Assembly (NCBI GenBank): GCA_022844275.1
Contig: JALHMB010000007.1
Coordinates: 62,001 to 126,000, forward strand
Reading direction: 5' to 3'
From: Hyphomicrobiaceae bacterium
GTDB taxonomy: Bacteria; Pseudomonadota; Alphaproteobacteria; Rhizobiales; Hyphomicrobiaceae
Length of the DNA stretch: 64,000 nucleotides
Shown: in pieces, positions 18,625-35,917 of the stretch
Layout of the letters: the number at the start of each line of letters is the position of its first letter
How positions within the stretch are numbered: the stretch's first letter is position 1
Notes under the pieces: generated by a model
What the model was told of the DNA's origin: nothing
The model's input: the letters and a program-made list of their open reading frames with translations, nothing else
Databases searched by the model: none
Program-made: the position numbers and the translations under genes

Positions 18625-18727
18625 CATGGACAGCGATGTTCGCGGGCTGACCGCGAGCTTCGTGGTGCCCTTCGGGCATTTCCTCCCTGGACTTGGGCCG
18701 CCCTTCTTGAGCGGCCCTCTTTTTTGT
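18625..18727 (+). ncRNA. suhB / alpha-r8 (MmgR)-type trans-acting small RNA
   Basis: Three hairpins in a row: 18640-18656 (TCGCGG/CCGCGA), 18666-18678 (TGCCC/GGGCA) and a terminator 18695-18717 (GGGCCGC/GCGGCCC) followed by TCTTTTTT. Between the second and third lies the unpaired run TTTCCTCCCT (18679-18688), the conserved anti-Shine-Dalgarno stretch known from the alphaproteobacterial suhB/alpha-r8 family. Such RNAs use it to pair with ribosome sites of target mRNAs, usually with Hfq. The 5' end is approximate because no clear promoter was identified. The same terminator would also stop read-through from the MFS gene. Confidence 0.72.
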
Positions 18728-18827
18728 ATTGCTGGCAGTTGAGTAAAATTGCGCTTGGCGCGCGATCTGGAGCATCTTTCACGCCTCTGATGGATCACGC
18801 AGCAATTCCATCGCAGGCGATCGTGTC

Positions 18828-30622: not shown

Positions 30623-31189
30623 TCAAGCCGCCTGACGCTGTCGCCGACGTGCAGCCTTTGCCTGGCCGAACGAAACCGGCTGACGGGCGGCTGCCTGCCA
30701 GCGGCGCGGCTCCAGGGCCTCGCCGCGTCGATGCTCCTTCACCTGCACATCGGCAGCGTCGAAAGCTGCCTTGAGCATGGGCACGACGAGGTGCGGCTTG
30801 GTATCGCCGCACATGAACACGTCCAGAGCCGCATAGCCGGCCTCGGGCCAGCTATGGATAGTGATGTGCGACTCTGCCAGCACCGCCACCCCAGCGACCC
30901 CGCCCTTCGGCGAAGTCGGGTGAAGATGCACGTTGAGCAGCGTCGCTCCAGCCGCTCGGGCACAGCGCTCGAGCGTCGTTTTGATGTAGGGCAAGTCGTC
31001 CAGACGCTTGCCGCCAAACACGTCGATGATGAGGTGCGAACCCGCAAACCTCACGCCGTCTCGCTCGACAAAAAAATCCTTACGATCGTCGTTCGCGACG
31101 GGTGCAGCGTAGATAAGGTCTTCCTTTTGGGCGGGGCTTGAACGAGTCAAGTCCATCCCCAATTGGAAGAGGGTGTCATCAAAGGCCAT
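30623..31189 (-). CDS. speD: S-adenosylmethionine decarboxylase proenzyme
   Basis: SpeD makes decarboxylated AdoMet, the aminopropyl donor for spermidine. The 188-residue chain carries the self-cleavage site [13 protein letters not shown]; cleavage at E106-S107 would leave a pyruvoyl group on the new alpha chain. The His in HITIHSWPE and the Cys in DVFMCGDT belong to the processing and catalytic set. The N-terminus and the basic Gln/Arg tail are longer than in the minimal prokaryotic class. GGGGAGGG precedes the ATG directly. No speE is adjacent. The leader upstream holds a segment complementary to the start site (see the regulatory entry), so translation is probably controlled. Confidence 0.95.
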
Positions 31190-31299
31190 ATGACCCTCCC
31201 CAACCAGCAGACAGATGTGACCCGTCCGCTCCTTACCTTAGGGGTTTCAGGAGATCCTTGACCTTTGGGGCAGGTGGACGAACGGAGGAGGGTCATATG
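31187..31299 (-). promoter_or_regulatory. speD: Structured speD leader with anti-Shine-Dalgarno segment, riboswitch-like
   Basis: On the speD transcript, CATATGACCCTCC (31299-31287) is the perfect complement of GGAGGGTCATATG (31199-31187), which contains the ribosome site and start codon. G-U and G-C pairs extend the match slightly. The same upstream segment can instead pair with GGACGGGTCA (31227-31218), nine pairs around one bulged C. That second partner can also close with CGTCC (31280-31276) over a folded core holding ACCT/AGGT and CTCCT/AGGAG stems. Two mutually exclusive states follow, start open or start masked. It does not match the SAM-II or speF patterns I know. Ligand and mechanism are unknown. 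Confidence 0.55.
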
Positions 31300-31418
31300 A
31301 GGCCAATCGCCCCCCCACGCAAGACCTTTTGCCCCCCCGGGGCAAAAAAGTTTGGGCTGTCGCCAGCGGCGGCGAAATTTGACCGAAAACAGCGATTCGA
31401 AACGCGACTTCTTAAGCG

Positions 31419-33776
31419 TCAGTTATCAAGGAAACGCTTCAGCAGATCCTTGGCGCGCTTGGCGCCCTTCTCAGCTTCGGGCGAGTCGCCGAGCAGGCGT
31501 TTCGCCGCCTTGTCGATGTCCTCGTCCTTGATGCCGCGCGCCTGCTCGCGCACGCCGTCGATCACCTTTTGCGAGCTCTTCAGGATGCTCTGATAGTCGC
31601 CGCGCAGGCGCGGGCGATGCCACGGCCCCGCGAGCTGCAGCGGGACCGTCAGCCCGGCAAGGCTCTTGGCACTGCCTGTCGCCGCGCCGTCGGCGAGGCG
31701 CGGATTGAGCGTCAGATCGAGCGTACGGGCAGGCAAGTTGATCGTGCCGGCACTGTCGAGGCTGATCGGCGAAGCGGCGATGCGCATGTCCTTGCCTGTC
31801 GCGATGCCGTCCTTGATGGTCAGGGCTGCCGAAAGCCGTGAGAACGGCGTGCGCGCACGCGGATTGCGGTCGAGATTGGGAAGCTCCAGGCGCCGCGCGC
31901 TGGCGATGATGTCTGCGACGCTCCAGCCGAGAATGGCGCCCTCGACAATGTCGACGGAAGCCGTACCGGCCAGCGTGCCGACAATCTCCTGCTCACTCGC
32001 GCCCTGACCGGCAACCGCGAGGCGGATCCGAGCCGGGCCGTCCAGGACCTCGAAGCGGCCGGCATTGCTGAAAGTTTCGAGTGCACTCACACCCTCGAGC
32101 GCGAGGTCGATGGCGATATGGCCCGCCGCCGAAGCCGTGATCACACCCTTCGCCGTGCCCCCGTGCATGGCGCCTTCGCGGATGTCGATCTTCAGCGCGC
32201 CATCGGAGAGCGAGAGACCGCCGACAGCGTCCGTCAGCACCGCGCCGCGCCAGACGACGCGGGTGGCGCGCAGCCGCGCGTCGCCGTCGGCACCGGTCAG
32301 ATTTGCGAAGGCAATGGGATCCGTGCGCCATTCGCGCGGGCCCCGGCCCTCGCGTTCCTGGGCTTGCTGCCCTTCCTGGCCGGATTCGTCGGAAGACGCA
32401 CTACCCTCGGTCTTGGGCACAGACGCATCCGGTGCGCGTGACGGCTCGACCCGCCGAACACTGCGACTGCGCTCCTCGCTGCGGCGCGGGCGGCCAACAT
32501 CCTTGCTCTCGCGCAGGCGGTCGAAATCGAGTTCCGCAAGCACAAGATCGGCCGCGAAGCGGGGACGTCCGCCGAGCGCCACTTCGACCCCGCCGCGCGC
32601 ATCGATGCCGGTCGACTTGAATTCCATGTCCTCGATGCGCGCGCGACCCTCCTGCGCATCGATCCGCCCCTTGAGCGCTACAGCGCCGCTGAGACCAGAG
32701 CCGTCGCGCAGGCGCATGCCGAGCCAGCGCCCAGCCTCGATAACGGAGGGCGTGCTGACGTCGAGTGTGCCGTTGAGCGAGAGCTGACCCGGGGAGCCGA
32801 CTGTGCCGTCGTAACTCGCCGTGCCGTGGCGTCCAGTGAGCTTGAGCGCCAGCTTCTCGACGACGCGGCCCGCGCTATCACCGGGTTCGGCGCCGACATC
32901 GAACTTCACTGTCTCGCCATTGTAGGCGACGCTACCACGCCCGCGGAGCGGTGCCCCCTTGCGAGCTTCACGTCTCGAAAGCCGGAGCTGAAGCTGGTCC
33001 GCCTGCGTGAGGCTGCCGGTGCGCAGGTCGCGATAACGCACGATACCGTCGGAGACCAGGATCGTGAGGTCGCCTTTCTGGCGACTTTCACTGCTCTCCC
33101 CGCCTTCCCGACGCTTGCGTCCGCGCTTCTCCTCAGGCGGTGGCGCCGAGCTATCCGGCAGCAGCGCTTCCTTCGGCGATGGCTCTTGCACTGCCGGCAT
33201 GGAGAAGCGGCCCGCATTCCCCTCCTGCGCCGCTCCCTCGCGCGCCACTTGGGCAACGCGCACGGTTCGTTCCCCGCTCTGCTCGGCCTTGAGCCACTGG
33301 CGGCGGCCATCCTGCGCCACGACCAGGTCGAGCTGCGGACGCCTCACGTAAACACGCTCGGGCAGCACACGGCCCCAGAGCAGCGGCAATATCTGAGCTT
33401 CGACCTCGACAGCCTCGGCTCTGAGCACCGGCGCACCACCCTCCTCGGCGGTCGCGACGACAACATCGCGAAACTCGATCGATGGTGTCGGAAGCAGGTT
33501 GAGAGACGTCGTGCCGTTGAGCTCGAGCACGTAGCCCGTGCGGGCGCGGAACTCGGCCGTCACACGTTCACGCGTGATATCGACCGGCGGCGCCACCAGG
33601 AGGAAAGTCGCAGCCGCGATGACGACGAACACGACGCCGAGCACGACGTAGATGGCCGTAGTCAACATCAGCGACCACCAGCTTCGCGGTGGCGGGCGGC
33701 GCGGCGCGCGTGGCGGCCGGGGCGCTGCCGATGGCGGCGGCGCGTGGCCTTGGGTGGGTGTCGCCTGCGCAGTCAT
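31419..33776 (-). CDS. AsmA family protein
   Basis: A 785-residue inner-membrane-anchored protein. After a Pro-rich cytoplasmic tail, one membrane helix (about residues 38-65) leads to the AsmA N-terminal domain (VDITRERVTAEFRARTGYVL). Long beta-rich repeats follow, and the C-terminal AsmA_2 signature (TGSAKSLAGLTVPLQLAGPW) comes near the end. Two Ser/Glu/Arg/Lys-rich, probably disordered inserts occur around 185-235 and 425-475. AsmA-like proteins form hydrophobic grooves that move phospholipids toward the outer membrane. It is single, between parE and speD. Confidence 0.88.
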   Translation of the reverse strand: MTAQATPTQGHAPPPSAAPRPPRAPRRPPPRSWWSLMLTTAIYVVLGVVFVVIAAATFLLVAPPVDITRERVTAEFRARTGYVLELNGTTSLNLLPTPSIEFRDVVVATAEEGGAPVLRAEAVEVEAQILPLLWGRVLPERVYVRRPQLDLVVAQDGRRQWLKAEQSGERTVRVAQVAREGAAQEGNAGRFSMPAVQEPSPKEALLPDSSAPPPEEKRGRKRREGGESSESRQKGDLTILVSDGIVRYRDLRTGSLTQADQLQLRLSRREARKGAPLRGRGSVAYNGETVKFDVGAEPGDSAGRVVEKLALKLTGRHGTASYDGTVGSPGQLSLNGTLDVSTPSVIEAGRWLGMRLRDGSGLSGAVALKGRIDAQEGRARIEDMEFKSTGIDARGGVEVALGGRPRFAADLVLAELDFDRLRESKDVGRPRRSEERSRSVRRVEPSRAPDASVPKTEGSASSDESGQEGQQAQEREGRGPREWRTDPIAFANLTGADGDARLRATRVVWRGAVLTDAVGGLSLSDGALKIDIREGAMHGGTAKGVITASAAGHIAIDLALEGVSALETFSNAGRFEVLDGPARIRLAVAGQGASEQEIVGTLAGTASVDIVEGAILGWSVADIIASARRLELPNLDRNPRARTPFSRLSAALTIKDGIATGKDMRIAASPISLDSAGTINLPARTLDLTLNPRLADGAATGSAKSLAGLTVPLQLAGPWHRPRLRGDYQSILKSSQKVIDGVREQARGIKDEDIDKAAKRLLGDSPEAEKGAKRAKDLLKRFLDN

Positions 33777-33907: not shown

Positions 33908-35917
33908 TTAAATATCCAGATCCTTGGCGAAGGCCGCCCGCTCCTGGATGAAACGGAAACGCAGCTCCGGCTTCGATCCCATAAGTGCGTTCACGGCATC
34001 CGTAACGGCCATCTTGTCGTCCTCGACGACCTCGACCCGCAGCAGCAGGCGCCGGGCAGGATCCATGGTCGTGACCTTCAGGTCCTTGAAATCCATCTCG
34101 CCAAGGCCCTTGAAGCGGGTGATGTCGACCTTGCCCCGTCCCTTGAACTCGCTCTCCATGAGCTGGTCCTTATGGAGATCGTTGCGGGCATACATGATCT
34201 TGCCGCCCTGCGTGAGGCGATAAAGCGGCGGCACGGCCAGATGGAGGTGGCCGTTCGCTACAAGCTCCGGCATCTCCTGATAGAAGAACGTGATCAGCAG
34301 CGAGGCGATATGGGCACCGTCGACATCGGCGTCCGTCATCACGATCACGCGGTCGTAGCGCAGGTCCTCGTCGCGGTACTTCGTGCCCGTGCCGACGCCC
34401 AGCGCAGTCACGAGGTCGGTGAGAAGCTGGTTCTGTGACAGCTTCGCCGACGTCGCATTTGCGACGTTCAGGATCTTGCCACGTAGCGGCAGAACGGCTT
34501 GCGTCTTCGGATTGCGCGCCTGCTTGGCCGAGCCTCCGGCCGAGTCGCCCTCGACGAGGAAGATTTCGGTATCGCCGCTCGTGCTGGAGCAATCGATGAG
34601 CTTGCCGGGAAGGCGCAGCTTGCGCGTCGCGTTCTGGCGGCCGATCTCCTTCTCGCGGCGACGCTTGAGGCGATCCTCGGCCTGATCGACGGTCCATTCG
34701 AGGAGGCGCGTCGCCTGCTGCGGGCTATCGGCAAGCCAGTGATCGAACGCATCGCGCACGGCACTCTCGACGATGCGCGCCGCTTCCTGCGTCGCGAGGC
34801 GGTCCTTAGTCTGGCCCTGGAATTCGGGTTCGCGAATGAAGACCGAAAGCATCCCGGACGACGTGCCAATAATATCCTCGGCCGTGATCTGGCCCGACTT
34901 TTTGTTGCCGGTGAGCTCGCCATAGGCGCGCAGGCCCTTTGTCAGCGCATTGCGCAAGCCCTGCTCGTGCGTACCGCCATCGGGGGTCGGCACGGTGTTG
35001 CAGTAGGAGTGAAGGAATCCGTCCTCGTCGCTGACCCAGCACATGGCCCATTCAACGGAGCCGTGTCCTTCTTTCTTCTCGACACGGCCCGCGAAGATGT
35101 CCTTCGTCACGCGTGTCTGTCCATCGATCGAGGCGGTCAAATAGTCCTTGAGCCCGCCCGGAAAGTGGAATGTCGCCTCGGCCGGAGTATCGTCCTTGAT
35201 GAGCGAGGGATCGCACGACCAGCGAATCTCGACGCCGCCGAATAGATAGGCCTTGGAGCGCGCCATCTTGAGAAGACGCGCCGGCTTGAACGTCGCACCC
35301 TTGCCGAAAATCTGCTCGTCCGGGTGGAAGCGGACCTTTGTCCCTCGCCGGTTCATGATCGAGCCGAGCTTTTCCAGCTTGGTCTGCGGAATGCCGCGGT
35401 TGAAGATCATGCGATAGAGTTGCTGGCCGCGCGCGACCTCTACTTCGAGATGATCGGAAAGCGCATTCACGACGGACACGCCGACGCCGTGCAGACCGCC
35501 TGAGGTCTGATAGGCCTTGCTGTCAAACTTGCCACCGGCGTGCAGCGTGCACATGACCACTTCGAGCGCCGACTTGTTCTTGAACTTCGGATGCGGGTCG
35601 ATCGGGATGCCGCGGCCGTTGTCGGCGACGCTCAGGAAACCATCGGCATCGAGGCGCACCTCGATCCATGTCGCGTGTCCTGCAACCGCCTCATCCATGG
35701 AGTTGTCGATCACCTCGGCGAAGAGATGATGCAGGGCCTTCTCGTCCGTGCCGCCGATGTACATGCCGGGGCGGCGGCGAACGGGCTCGAGGCCTTCGAG
35801 AACTTCGATGAGATCGGCGCCATAGTCATCGGACGCATCGCCGTTCTTGCGGGCGCGCAGGGGTTTTTCGGTCAACTCGGCCTCGAGCTTGGCAAACAGG
35901 TCACGGGAGGACGCCAT
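33908..35917 (-). CDS. parE: DNA topoisomerase IV subunit B
   Basis: The ATPase subunit of topoisomerase IV, which decatenates daughter chromosomes with ParC. It has 669 residues with the GHKL ATPase domain (VIDNSMDEAVAGH, DNGRGIPIDPHP, GGLHGVGVSVVNALS), the transducer domain, the TOPRIM domain with EGDSAGGSAKQARN and the DADVDGAHI metal site, and the C-terminal RFKGLGEM motif. Length and the ADNGRGIP context fit alphaproteobacterial ParE rather than GyrB, which is about 800 residues. The partner parC is not in the window. Confidence 0.94.
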   Translation of the reverse strand: MASSRDLFAKLEAELTEKPLRARKNGDASDDYGADLIEVLEGLEPVRRRPGMYIGGTDEKALHHLFAEVIDNSMDEAVAGHATWIEVRLDADGFLSVADNGRGIPIDPHPKFKNKSALEVVMCTLHAGGKFDSKAYQTSGGLHGVGVSVVNALSDHLEVEVARGQQLYRMIFNRGIPQTKLEKLGSIMNRRGTKVRFHPDEQIFGKGATFKPARLLKMARSKAYLFGGVEIRWSCDPSLIKDDTPAEATFHFPGGLKDYLTASIDGQTRVTKDIFAGRVEKKEGHGSVEWAMCWVSDEDGFLHSYCNTVPTPDGGTHEQGLRNALTKGLRAYGELTGNKKSGQITAEDIIGTSSGMLSVFIREPEFQGQTKDRLATQEAARIVESAVRDAFDHWLADSPQQATRLLEWTVDQAEDRLKRRREKEIGRQNATRKLRLPGKLIDCSSTSGDTEIFLVEGDSAGGSAKQARNPKTQAVLPLRGKILNVANATSAKLSQNQLLTDLVTALGVGTGTKYRDEDLRYDRVIVMTDADVDGAHIASLLITFFYQEMPELVANGHLHLAVPPLYRLTQGGKIMYARNDLHKDQLMESEFKGRGKVDITRFKGLGEMDFKDLKVTTMDPARRLLLRVEVVEDDKMAVTDAVNALMGSKPELRFRFIQERAAFAKDLDI

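Follow-up and report, generated by a model that had tools for sequence, protein, structure and literature searches.

The closest described relatives of the RNA reported here are leader elements acting on polyamine and methionine genes. A spermidine riboswitch that is a variant of SAM-I is found on polyamine biosynthesis genes, where, in the account given in PMC10853860, negative feedback by spermidine is the proposed logic and a SAM-I-type aptamer acts through transcription termination. The speF element (RF00518), as described in PMC1273637, is an alphaproteobacterial leader RNA on a polyamine gene, intergenic and upstream of ornithine decarboxylase. SAM-II on metA is a compact alphaproteobacterial switch that masks the Shine-Dalgarno sequence and, according to the descriptions in PMC9373788 and PMC1273637, can act on the downstream start. 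One study of structured RNAs states that riboswitches lie almost without exception outside coding regions, and its overlaps with coding sequence were removed (as outlined in PMC6429828). Searches for structured RNAs are usually confined to non-coding stretches, and an element straddling a start codon could escape them.

We analysed a stretch of 64,000 nucleotides from a Hyphomicrobiaceae bacterium (hereafter the window), in which the product of speD was identified by profile searches as AdoMet decarboxylase (PF02675, E 5e-31; also TIGR03330), in agreement with a first-pass annotation of this DNA. Comparison among relatives places a conserved RNA, which that annotation had missed, from the ribosome-binding site into the first speD codons (Table 1). 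The core of this RNA falls in an N-terminal extension of SpeD, because PF02675, spanning residues 52-156, starts only at residue 52. An ORF on the minus strand that we take to be AsmA-like (31419-33776) ends upstream of the speD promoter, and further upstream lies another, presumably ParE/GyrB-like (33908-35917, minus strand). Elsewhere in the window, at 18660-18732 on the plus strand, Rfam RF00519 (suhB/mmgR sRNA) matches with 65.5 bits.

The speD element appears to work like a translational riboswitch with putative ligand binding. It shares with the spermidine-responsive SAM-I variant of PMC10853860 a place on polyamine biosynthesis genes, but overlaps coding sequence and has translation as its likely output; we set the two apart by the published description and by the lack of a SAM-I-type Rfam match. 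If the speD element senses polyamines, it would be a spermidine-responsive RNA unlike that variant. Like the speF element it is an alphaproteobacterial leader RNA on a polyamine gene, but RF00518 gave no match when the window, 16 class loci and 3 nspC loci were searched. From SAM-II it differs in that no SAM-II match was obtained and its competing strands include codons. No Rfam riboswitch family reached its gathering score in the window, and none matched at E up to 5 in 30900-31600. SAM-II, SAM-V, speF and other Rfam families were accordingly rejected for want of a covariance-model match, which agrees with the first-pass annotation, where the core was not recognised as SAM-II, SAM-V or speF RNA. 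No description of the element was found in Rfam 15 or in open-licence PMC papers, the two sources covered, with subscription papers and preprints outside the search; the element is possibly undescribed, which may be because structured-RNA searches of the kind mentioned above discard coding overlaps.

Table 1. Features of the speD locus and of related loci (window coordinates unless a locus is named)
Feature	Position	Strand	Remarks
speD ORF, 188 aa	30623..31189	(-)	AdoMet decarboxylase
speD start codon	31187..31189	(-)	sits in loop of state A
Core RNA, match of models R1 and R3	31119..31219	(-)	Shine-Dalgarno, AUG, codons 1-24
5' competitor, leader strand with Shine-Dalgarno GGGGAGG (31201-31195)	31195..31214	(-)	pairs with central strand in state A
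Central switch strand, codons 6-13, CCUCUUCCAAUUGGGGAUGG	31153..31172	(-)	common to states A and B
3' competitor, codons 19-24, CCGCCCAAAAGGAAGA	31119..31134	(-)	pairs with central strand in state B
Inner hairpin, CUUGA (31151-31147) with UCAAG (31141-31137)	31137..31151	(-)	5/5 pairs change on both sides
5' domain, closed by P1 (31285-31279 with 31228-31222)	31216..31287	(-)	model R2
Putative promoter	31294..31322	(-)	-35-like TTGCGT 31322-31317, 17 nt, -10-like CATATG 31299-31294
Core RNA at nspC loci	L164 2994-3091; L165 2994-3085; L166 2994-3084; L191 2519-2610; L192 2505-2602		
speD ORFs without the catalytic Ser	L030, L047, L048, L052, L056, L062-L066, L069-L074, L076, L077		

The core is predicted to adopt two folds. 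In state A, leader 31214-31195 pairs with codons 6-13 (31172-31153), masking the Shine-Dalgarno sequence and placing the start codon in a loop. State B, confined to codons 7-24, is a hairpin assembled from the strands UCUUCC, AA, UUGGG, GA, UGG, A, CUUGA, a loop, UCAAG, CC, CCG, CCCAA, AA and GGAAGA, in which the Shine-Dalgarno sequence is free; the length of its inner hairpin loop differs among species. The two are mutually exclusive, since most of the codon strand used by A is also needed by B. The leader consensus UCU(A/G)UCU(A/G)CUGGUUGGGGAGG is near-frozen in most of the first 28 aligned loci, as are the start codon and codons 5-23. A local leader hairpin in the minimum fold of the window, GCGGACGGGU/AUCUGUCUGC, was discarded as unconserved because it depends on the G of UCUGUCU, a position occupied by A in many close relatives. 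The first-pass annotation had proposed a pair of exclusive states with the start masked in one; this general idea is supported, and the strands assigned to it are not, the conserved competitors being codons 6-13 and 19-24, which lie in the coding sequence and outside the segments it had named.

This region is conserved at the level of RNA. Among 49 coding sequences, synonymous identity is 0.984 in codons 5-23 compared with 0.460 from codon 30 on, where the best 19-codon window reaches 0.55, and on these grounds peptide-level selection alone was rejected. The freezing of codons 5-23 persists in seven sequences whose remaining SpeD is only 20-30% identical to that of the window.

We regard as probable that a cis-acting RNA with two states controls the initiation of speD translation and that a polyamine signal favours state A. 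The central strand would pair either with the Shine-Dalgarno leader strand, giving state A with translation off, or with codons 19-24, giving state B with the Shine-Dalgarno sequence free and translation on; this assignment of off and on is read from the anatomy of the folds. State A could form first during transcription because its strands emerge earlier, and state B would displace it once codons 19-24 emerge. A signal from polyamine metabolism would then favour state A and shut off synthesis, and the signal would most likely be spermidine or a close polyamine, since the same RNA precedes genes of two spermidine routes. Computation provides the conservation at the RNA level, the covariation of B, the complementarity of A, the near-equal predicted energies and the gene contexts; from these we infer that the states interconvert in vivo, which of them is on and which off, that there is feedback, and what the ligand would be.

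The distribution of the element was followed with covariance models; model R1 was built from 25 chosen sequences, alignment A3 holds 100 sequences and alignment A5 holds 100 picked for diversity. R1 matches 64 of 397 genomes of the order, the downstream gene having been checked for part of these 64, and 31 of 385 genomes of the class. With model R3 at E up to 0.1, 50 of the 385 class genomes match; in 38 of them E is below 1e-3, and every one of those 38 matches lies directly upstream of a PF02675 domain on the same strand, as do three weaker matches (G563, G785 and G493). The element is thus present in at least 41 of the 157 class genomes that have PF02675, and most of them have no detectable copy. 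Among the 30 class loci having downstream flank, speE is present in 28, and at such loci the RNA would control a speD standing in front of speE. R3 gave no match at the order speD loci L058-L061 and L068, whose proteins have no N-terminal extension, or at the speD loci L040-L044 and L148. A phylum sample of 229 genomes yielded six matches at E below 1e-3, every one inside the class, and 13 further weak matches (E 0.006-0.09), some inside the class, the best outside it having E 0.006. In family f23 (41 genomes) there was one strong match, at speD (G1035), and six weak ones (L169-L174) that have no speD or nspC in their vicinity. Fifteen viral contigs (L149-L163) carry the exact leader string CATCTRCTGGTTGGGGAG, but their matches to the model are weak and only some 31-35 nt long (best E 0.011, eight with identical score); the coding-strand pattern is absent from all 15, and a search of phage records for the element gave no match.

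The element also occurs away from speD. In all five matching plasmid records, from Chelatococcus (2), Shinella (2) and Sinorhizobium sp. BG8 (1), the core RNA (61-80 bits) stands about 300-340 nt upstream of nspC and the carboxyspermidine dehydrogenase gene, which belong to the second bacterial pathway for making spermidine. For Chelatococcus the name nspC comes from the annotation; with 403 bits, Shinella NspC falls short of the TIGR01047 cut-off of 409 and is nspC-like by that model. At these loci the RNA spans a short reading frame (read in L164-L166), and in Sinorhizobium sp. BG8 one base fewer shifts that frame inside the element, with the RNA kept. With about 300-340 nt between the end of the RNA and nspC, control at these loci cannot work simply by hiding the nspC start. 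That one RNA is common to two spermidine routes suggests a polyamine signal, on the evidence of three genera; a signal common to both is more likely to be spermidine, or a different polyamine, than AdoMet or dcAdoMet, and unlike the case of SAM-II, the nspC linkage does not suggest AdoMet as the ligand.

An oddity concerns the catalytic residue of SpeD. The RNA-bearing SpeD ORFs number 113, corresponding to 111 distinct loci and selected such that the frame runs through the RNA into SpeD. The pyruvoyl-forming Ser (S107 in the window) is kept in 94 of these 113 ORFs (92 distinct), with a gap in one, and is replaced by Gly in 18 of the 111 distinct loci, where the RNA is retained. All 18 belong to the window's family and are spread across eight genera. 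The product is therefore not always an AdoMet decarboxylase; judged by its sequence, a SpeD with this replacement cannot form the pyruvoyl group from that residue. In the 14 Ser-less loci of alignment A5 the RNA is 84-96% identical to that of the window, compared with 83-96% in Ser-bearing members of the family. The trypanosome AdoMet decarboxylase prozyme is likewise a catalytically dead homologue with regulated expression, but in the description of PMC6221367 it is a paralogue of the active enzyme, whereas a Ser-less SpeD is usually the sole SpeD match in its genome. Of 16 genomes searched for an NspC homologue, 13 have one, among them the window's own and all eight with a Ser-less SpeD; the match in one of the 13, G062, is marginal (E 5.7e-5). 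The homologue in the window's genome (G000:C6:426716-427819) lies on another contig and is 37% identical to Shinella NspC. A SpeE search of that genome returned no match, a blank answer that is uninformative on absence. As described in PMC10407285, SpeD homologues can differ in activity where the genome has no SpeE, and by analogy the SpeD of the window's family may act outside the usual pathway. The locus opens to test the control of spermidine synthesis in Alphaproteobacteria and the reason why a Ser-less SpeD keeps its RNA.

Taken at its widest, the element would be a class-wide polyamine (spermidine) riboswitch with its switching strands mostly in the ORF, one that governs two non-homologous routes, by AdoMet decarboxylase and by carboxyspermidine, that gave the N-terminal extension of SpeD its form, and that persists after the enzyme has lost its catalytic activity. 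We advance this wider reading tentatively. The fold might instead be selected in trans, by a regulatory protein, by a small RNA or by SpeD itself, with no direct binding of a small molecule. The retention of the RNA at Ser-less SpeD loci would suit such a factor, and so would the leader CUGG and other letters, which are almost invariant to a degree that pairing does not require, also at G.U pairs; but an element common to speD and nspC loci in different families would require the factor to be widely conserved, and we judge trans selection unlikely, if a serious contender.

The two states differ in the kind of evidence behind them. Over 94 distinct rows of an alignment fitted to the model's structure, which favours B, 96.5% of the cells of state B are paired and 12 of its 19 pairs have changed on both sides (60 cells); in this structure-fitted alignment none of 500 shuffles reaches the observed pairing, and slid controls gave 40-58%. 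When changes were mapped on a tree built from the SpeD catalytic domain, 29 compensatory events were counted for state B, compared with a mean of 1.24 and a maximum of 6 in 2000 re-pairing null replicates. The tree test used 88 of 100 rows, the 12 left out having no filter-passing protein and 10 of those being Ser-less SpeD loci. State A is 92.3% paired in the 94 distinct rows (22 pairs counted), 94.4% in 100 rows (19 pairs) and 90.7% in the 56 rows that the first sample did not include, for which the re-paired null has a mean of 43% and a maximum of 74% in 1000 replicates. Within the next 400 nt, the best duplex of the leader is the codon 6-13 site in 84 of 98 loci. Compensatory events in A are few (5, null 1.34, P 0.02), and on the tree 82 events are consistent with A compared with 63 that break it. 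The support for state A thus appears to be mainly conserved complementarity, with weak covariation, and the frequent G.U pairs in both states point to the sense strand as the one that folds.

Predicted energies place the two states close together. Across 100 sequences the energy of A minus that of B has a mean of 0.08 and a median of -0.10 kcal/mol; the two lie within 4 kcal/mol in 69 sequences, A is the lower in 50, and one state is predicted to be at least 8 kcal/mol more stable in 11. The unconstrained minimum fold contains neither A nor B in 5 of 100. When prefixes without the 3' competitor were folded, at least 10 state A pairs were predicted in 94 of 100, a raw count with no shuffled control. 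The segment 31287-31140, with the promoter arm left out, is not unusually stable (z -1.56; 13 of 200 shuffles as good), and the case for structure there is comparative rather than energetic. One trait of riboswitches is found here, a conserved structure with covariation in the 5' region of the mRNA, unusual in extending into coding sequence. A second, switching between exclusive folds coupled to the ribosome site, is a proposal that sequence and prediction favour, through the shared strand 31172-31153 and the near-equal predicted energies. In another reading state B alone would be functional, for example through mRNA stability or an open start region, and the complementarity between leader and codons 6-13 would not be a switch. 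Strong covariation for B with little for A is what this predicts, but the leader equals the coding part in conservation and is its complement in the 94.4% of cells given above, and the near-equal energies of A and B also speak against it; we consider it improbable.

Two readings place the function outside the control of speD initiation by a two-state RNA. The leader might be released as a small RNA acting in trans, any effect in cis on speD being secondary; its persistence where SpeD has lost the catalytic Ser and its position ahead of a short reading frame at nspC loci could be so explained, but no terminator was found in 31100-31500 and the frame continues through the RNA into SpeD in 111 distinct loci (selected for that), which makes such release quite doubtful. 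Polyamine-sensing nascent peptides exist in other systems, including a fungal case, and the N-terminus of SpeD, highly conserved at the protein level, might be frozen for a peptide that senses polyamines on the ribosome. The synonymous sites are frozen as well, the paired arms of the RNA covary and Sinorhizobium sp. BG8 keeps the RNA through a frame shift in the element, all of which leaves a peptide sensor very improbable.

The first-pass annotation had placed the switch elsewhere, with an anti-Shine-Dalgarno segment at 31299-31287 (CATATGACCCTCC) masking the speD start at 31199-31187 (GGAGGGTCATATG). On the minus strand the two are indeed exact reverse complements (13/13), and 31299-31187, if wholly transcribed, folds well below dinucleotide shuffles (z -4.07); six of the 13 complementary letters are the palindrome CATATG, found at both ends. 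Related speD upstream regions do not conserve this pairing. Of 45 loci tried, the window's own included, 43 were scored and two had no promoter-pattern match; 13/13 occurs in one of the 43 (the window's own) and at least 11/13 in eight, and the median is 8/13. The related loci carry instead what looks like a promoter, a putative assignment drawn from conservation and geometry: the pattern CTTGnn-18 nt-CATAnn is found in 41 of the 43 scored loci, with a 19-nt spacer in the other two, and stands 7-9 nt before the point where the conserved leader RNA begins in all 43. A simple sigma-70 consensus scan called no promoter at the speD leader. The proposed anti-Shine-Dalgarno segment overlaps the conserved -10 box, and this geometry argues against its being on the speD transcript; transcription might begin farther upstream, yet the pairing is unconserved in either case. 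By these comparisons the 13-nt complementarity is no more than a coincidence, the upstream arm being apparently a promoter element. Because the full 13 pairs occur in only one of 43 loci and the arm is a -10-like box, a switch built on it is unsupported, and we give it next to no credence despite the exact complement and the stable fold in the window.

Between this putative promoter and the core lies a further domain, which is restricted to the window's family. The closing helix that the first-pass annotation had drawn, 31280-31276 with 31227-31223, is 93.4% paired in 40 relatives with zero two-sided changes, and that register was rejected; the register 31285-31279/31228-31222 (P1) has a compensatory change, from C-G to U-A, in 4 of the 40. 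Two alternative folds fit the interior about equally. Model R2 finds one match per genome in 48 of 60 genomes of the window's family; in two of the 48 (G041 and G025) the match is on a different contig from the speD match, likely through broken contigs. This putative 5' domain is possibly a second sensing or standby domain. Its near-invariant stretches are ACCUGCC, AAGGU and AAGGUAAGGAG, the last of which resembles a Shine-Dalgarno sequence without a start codon.
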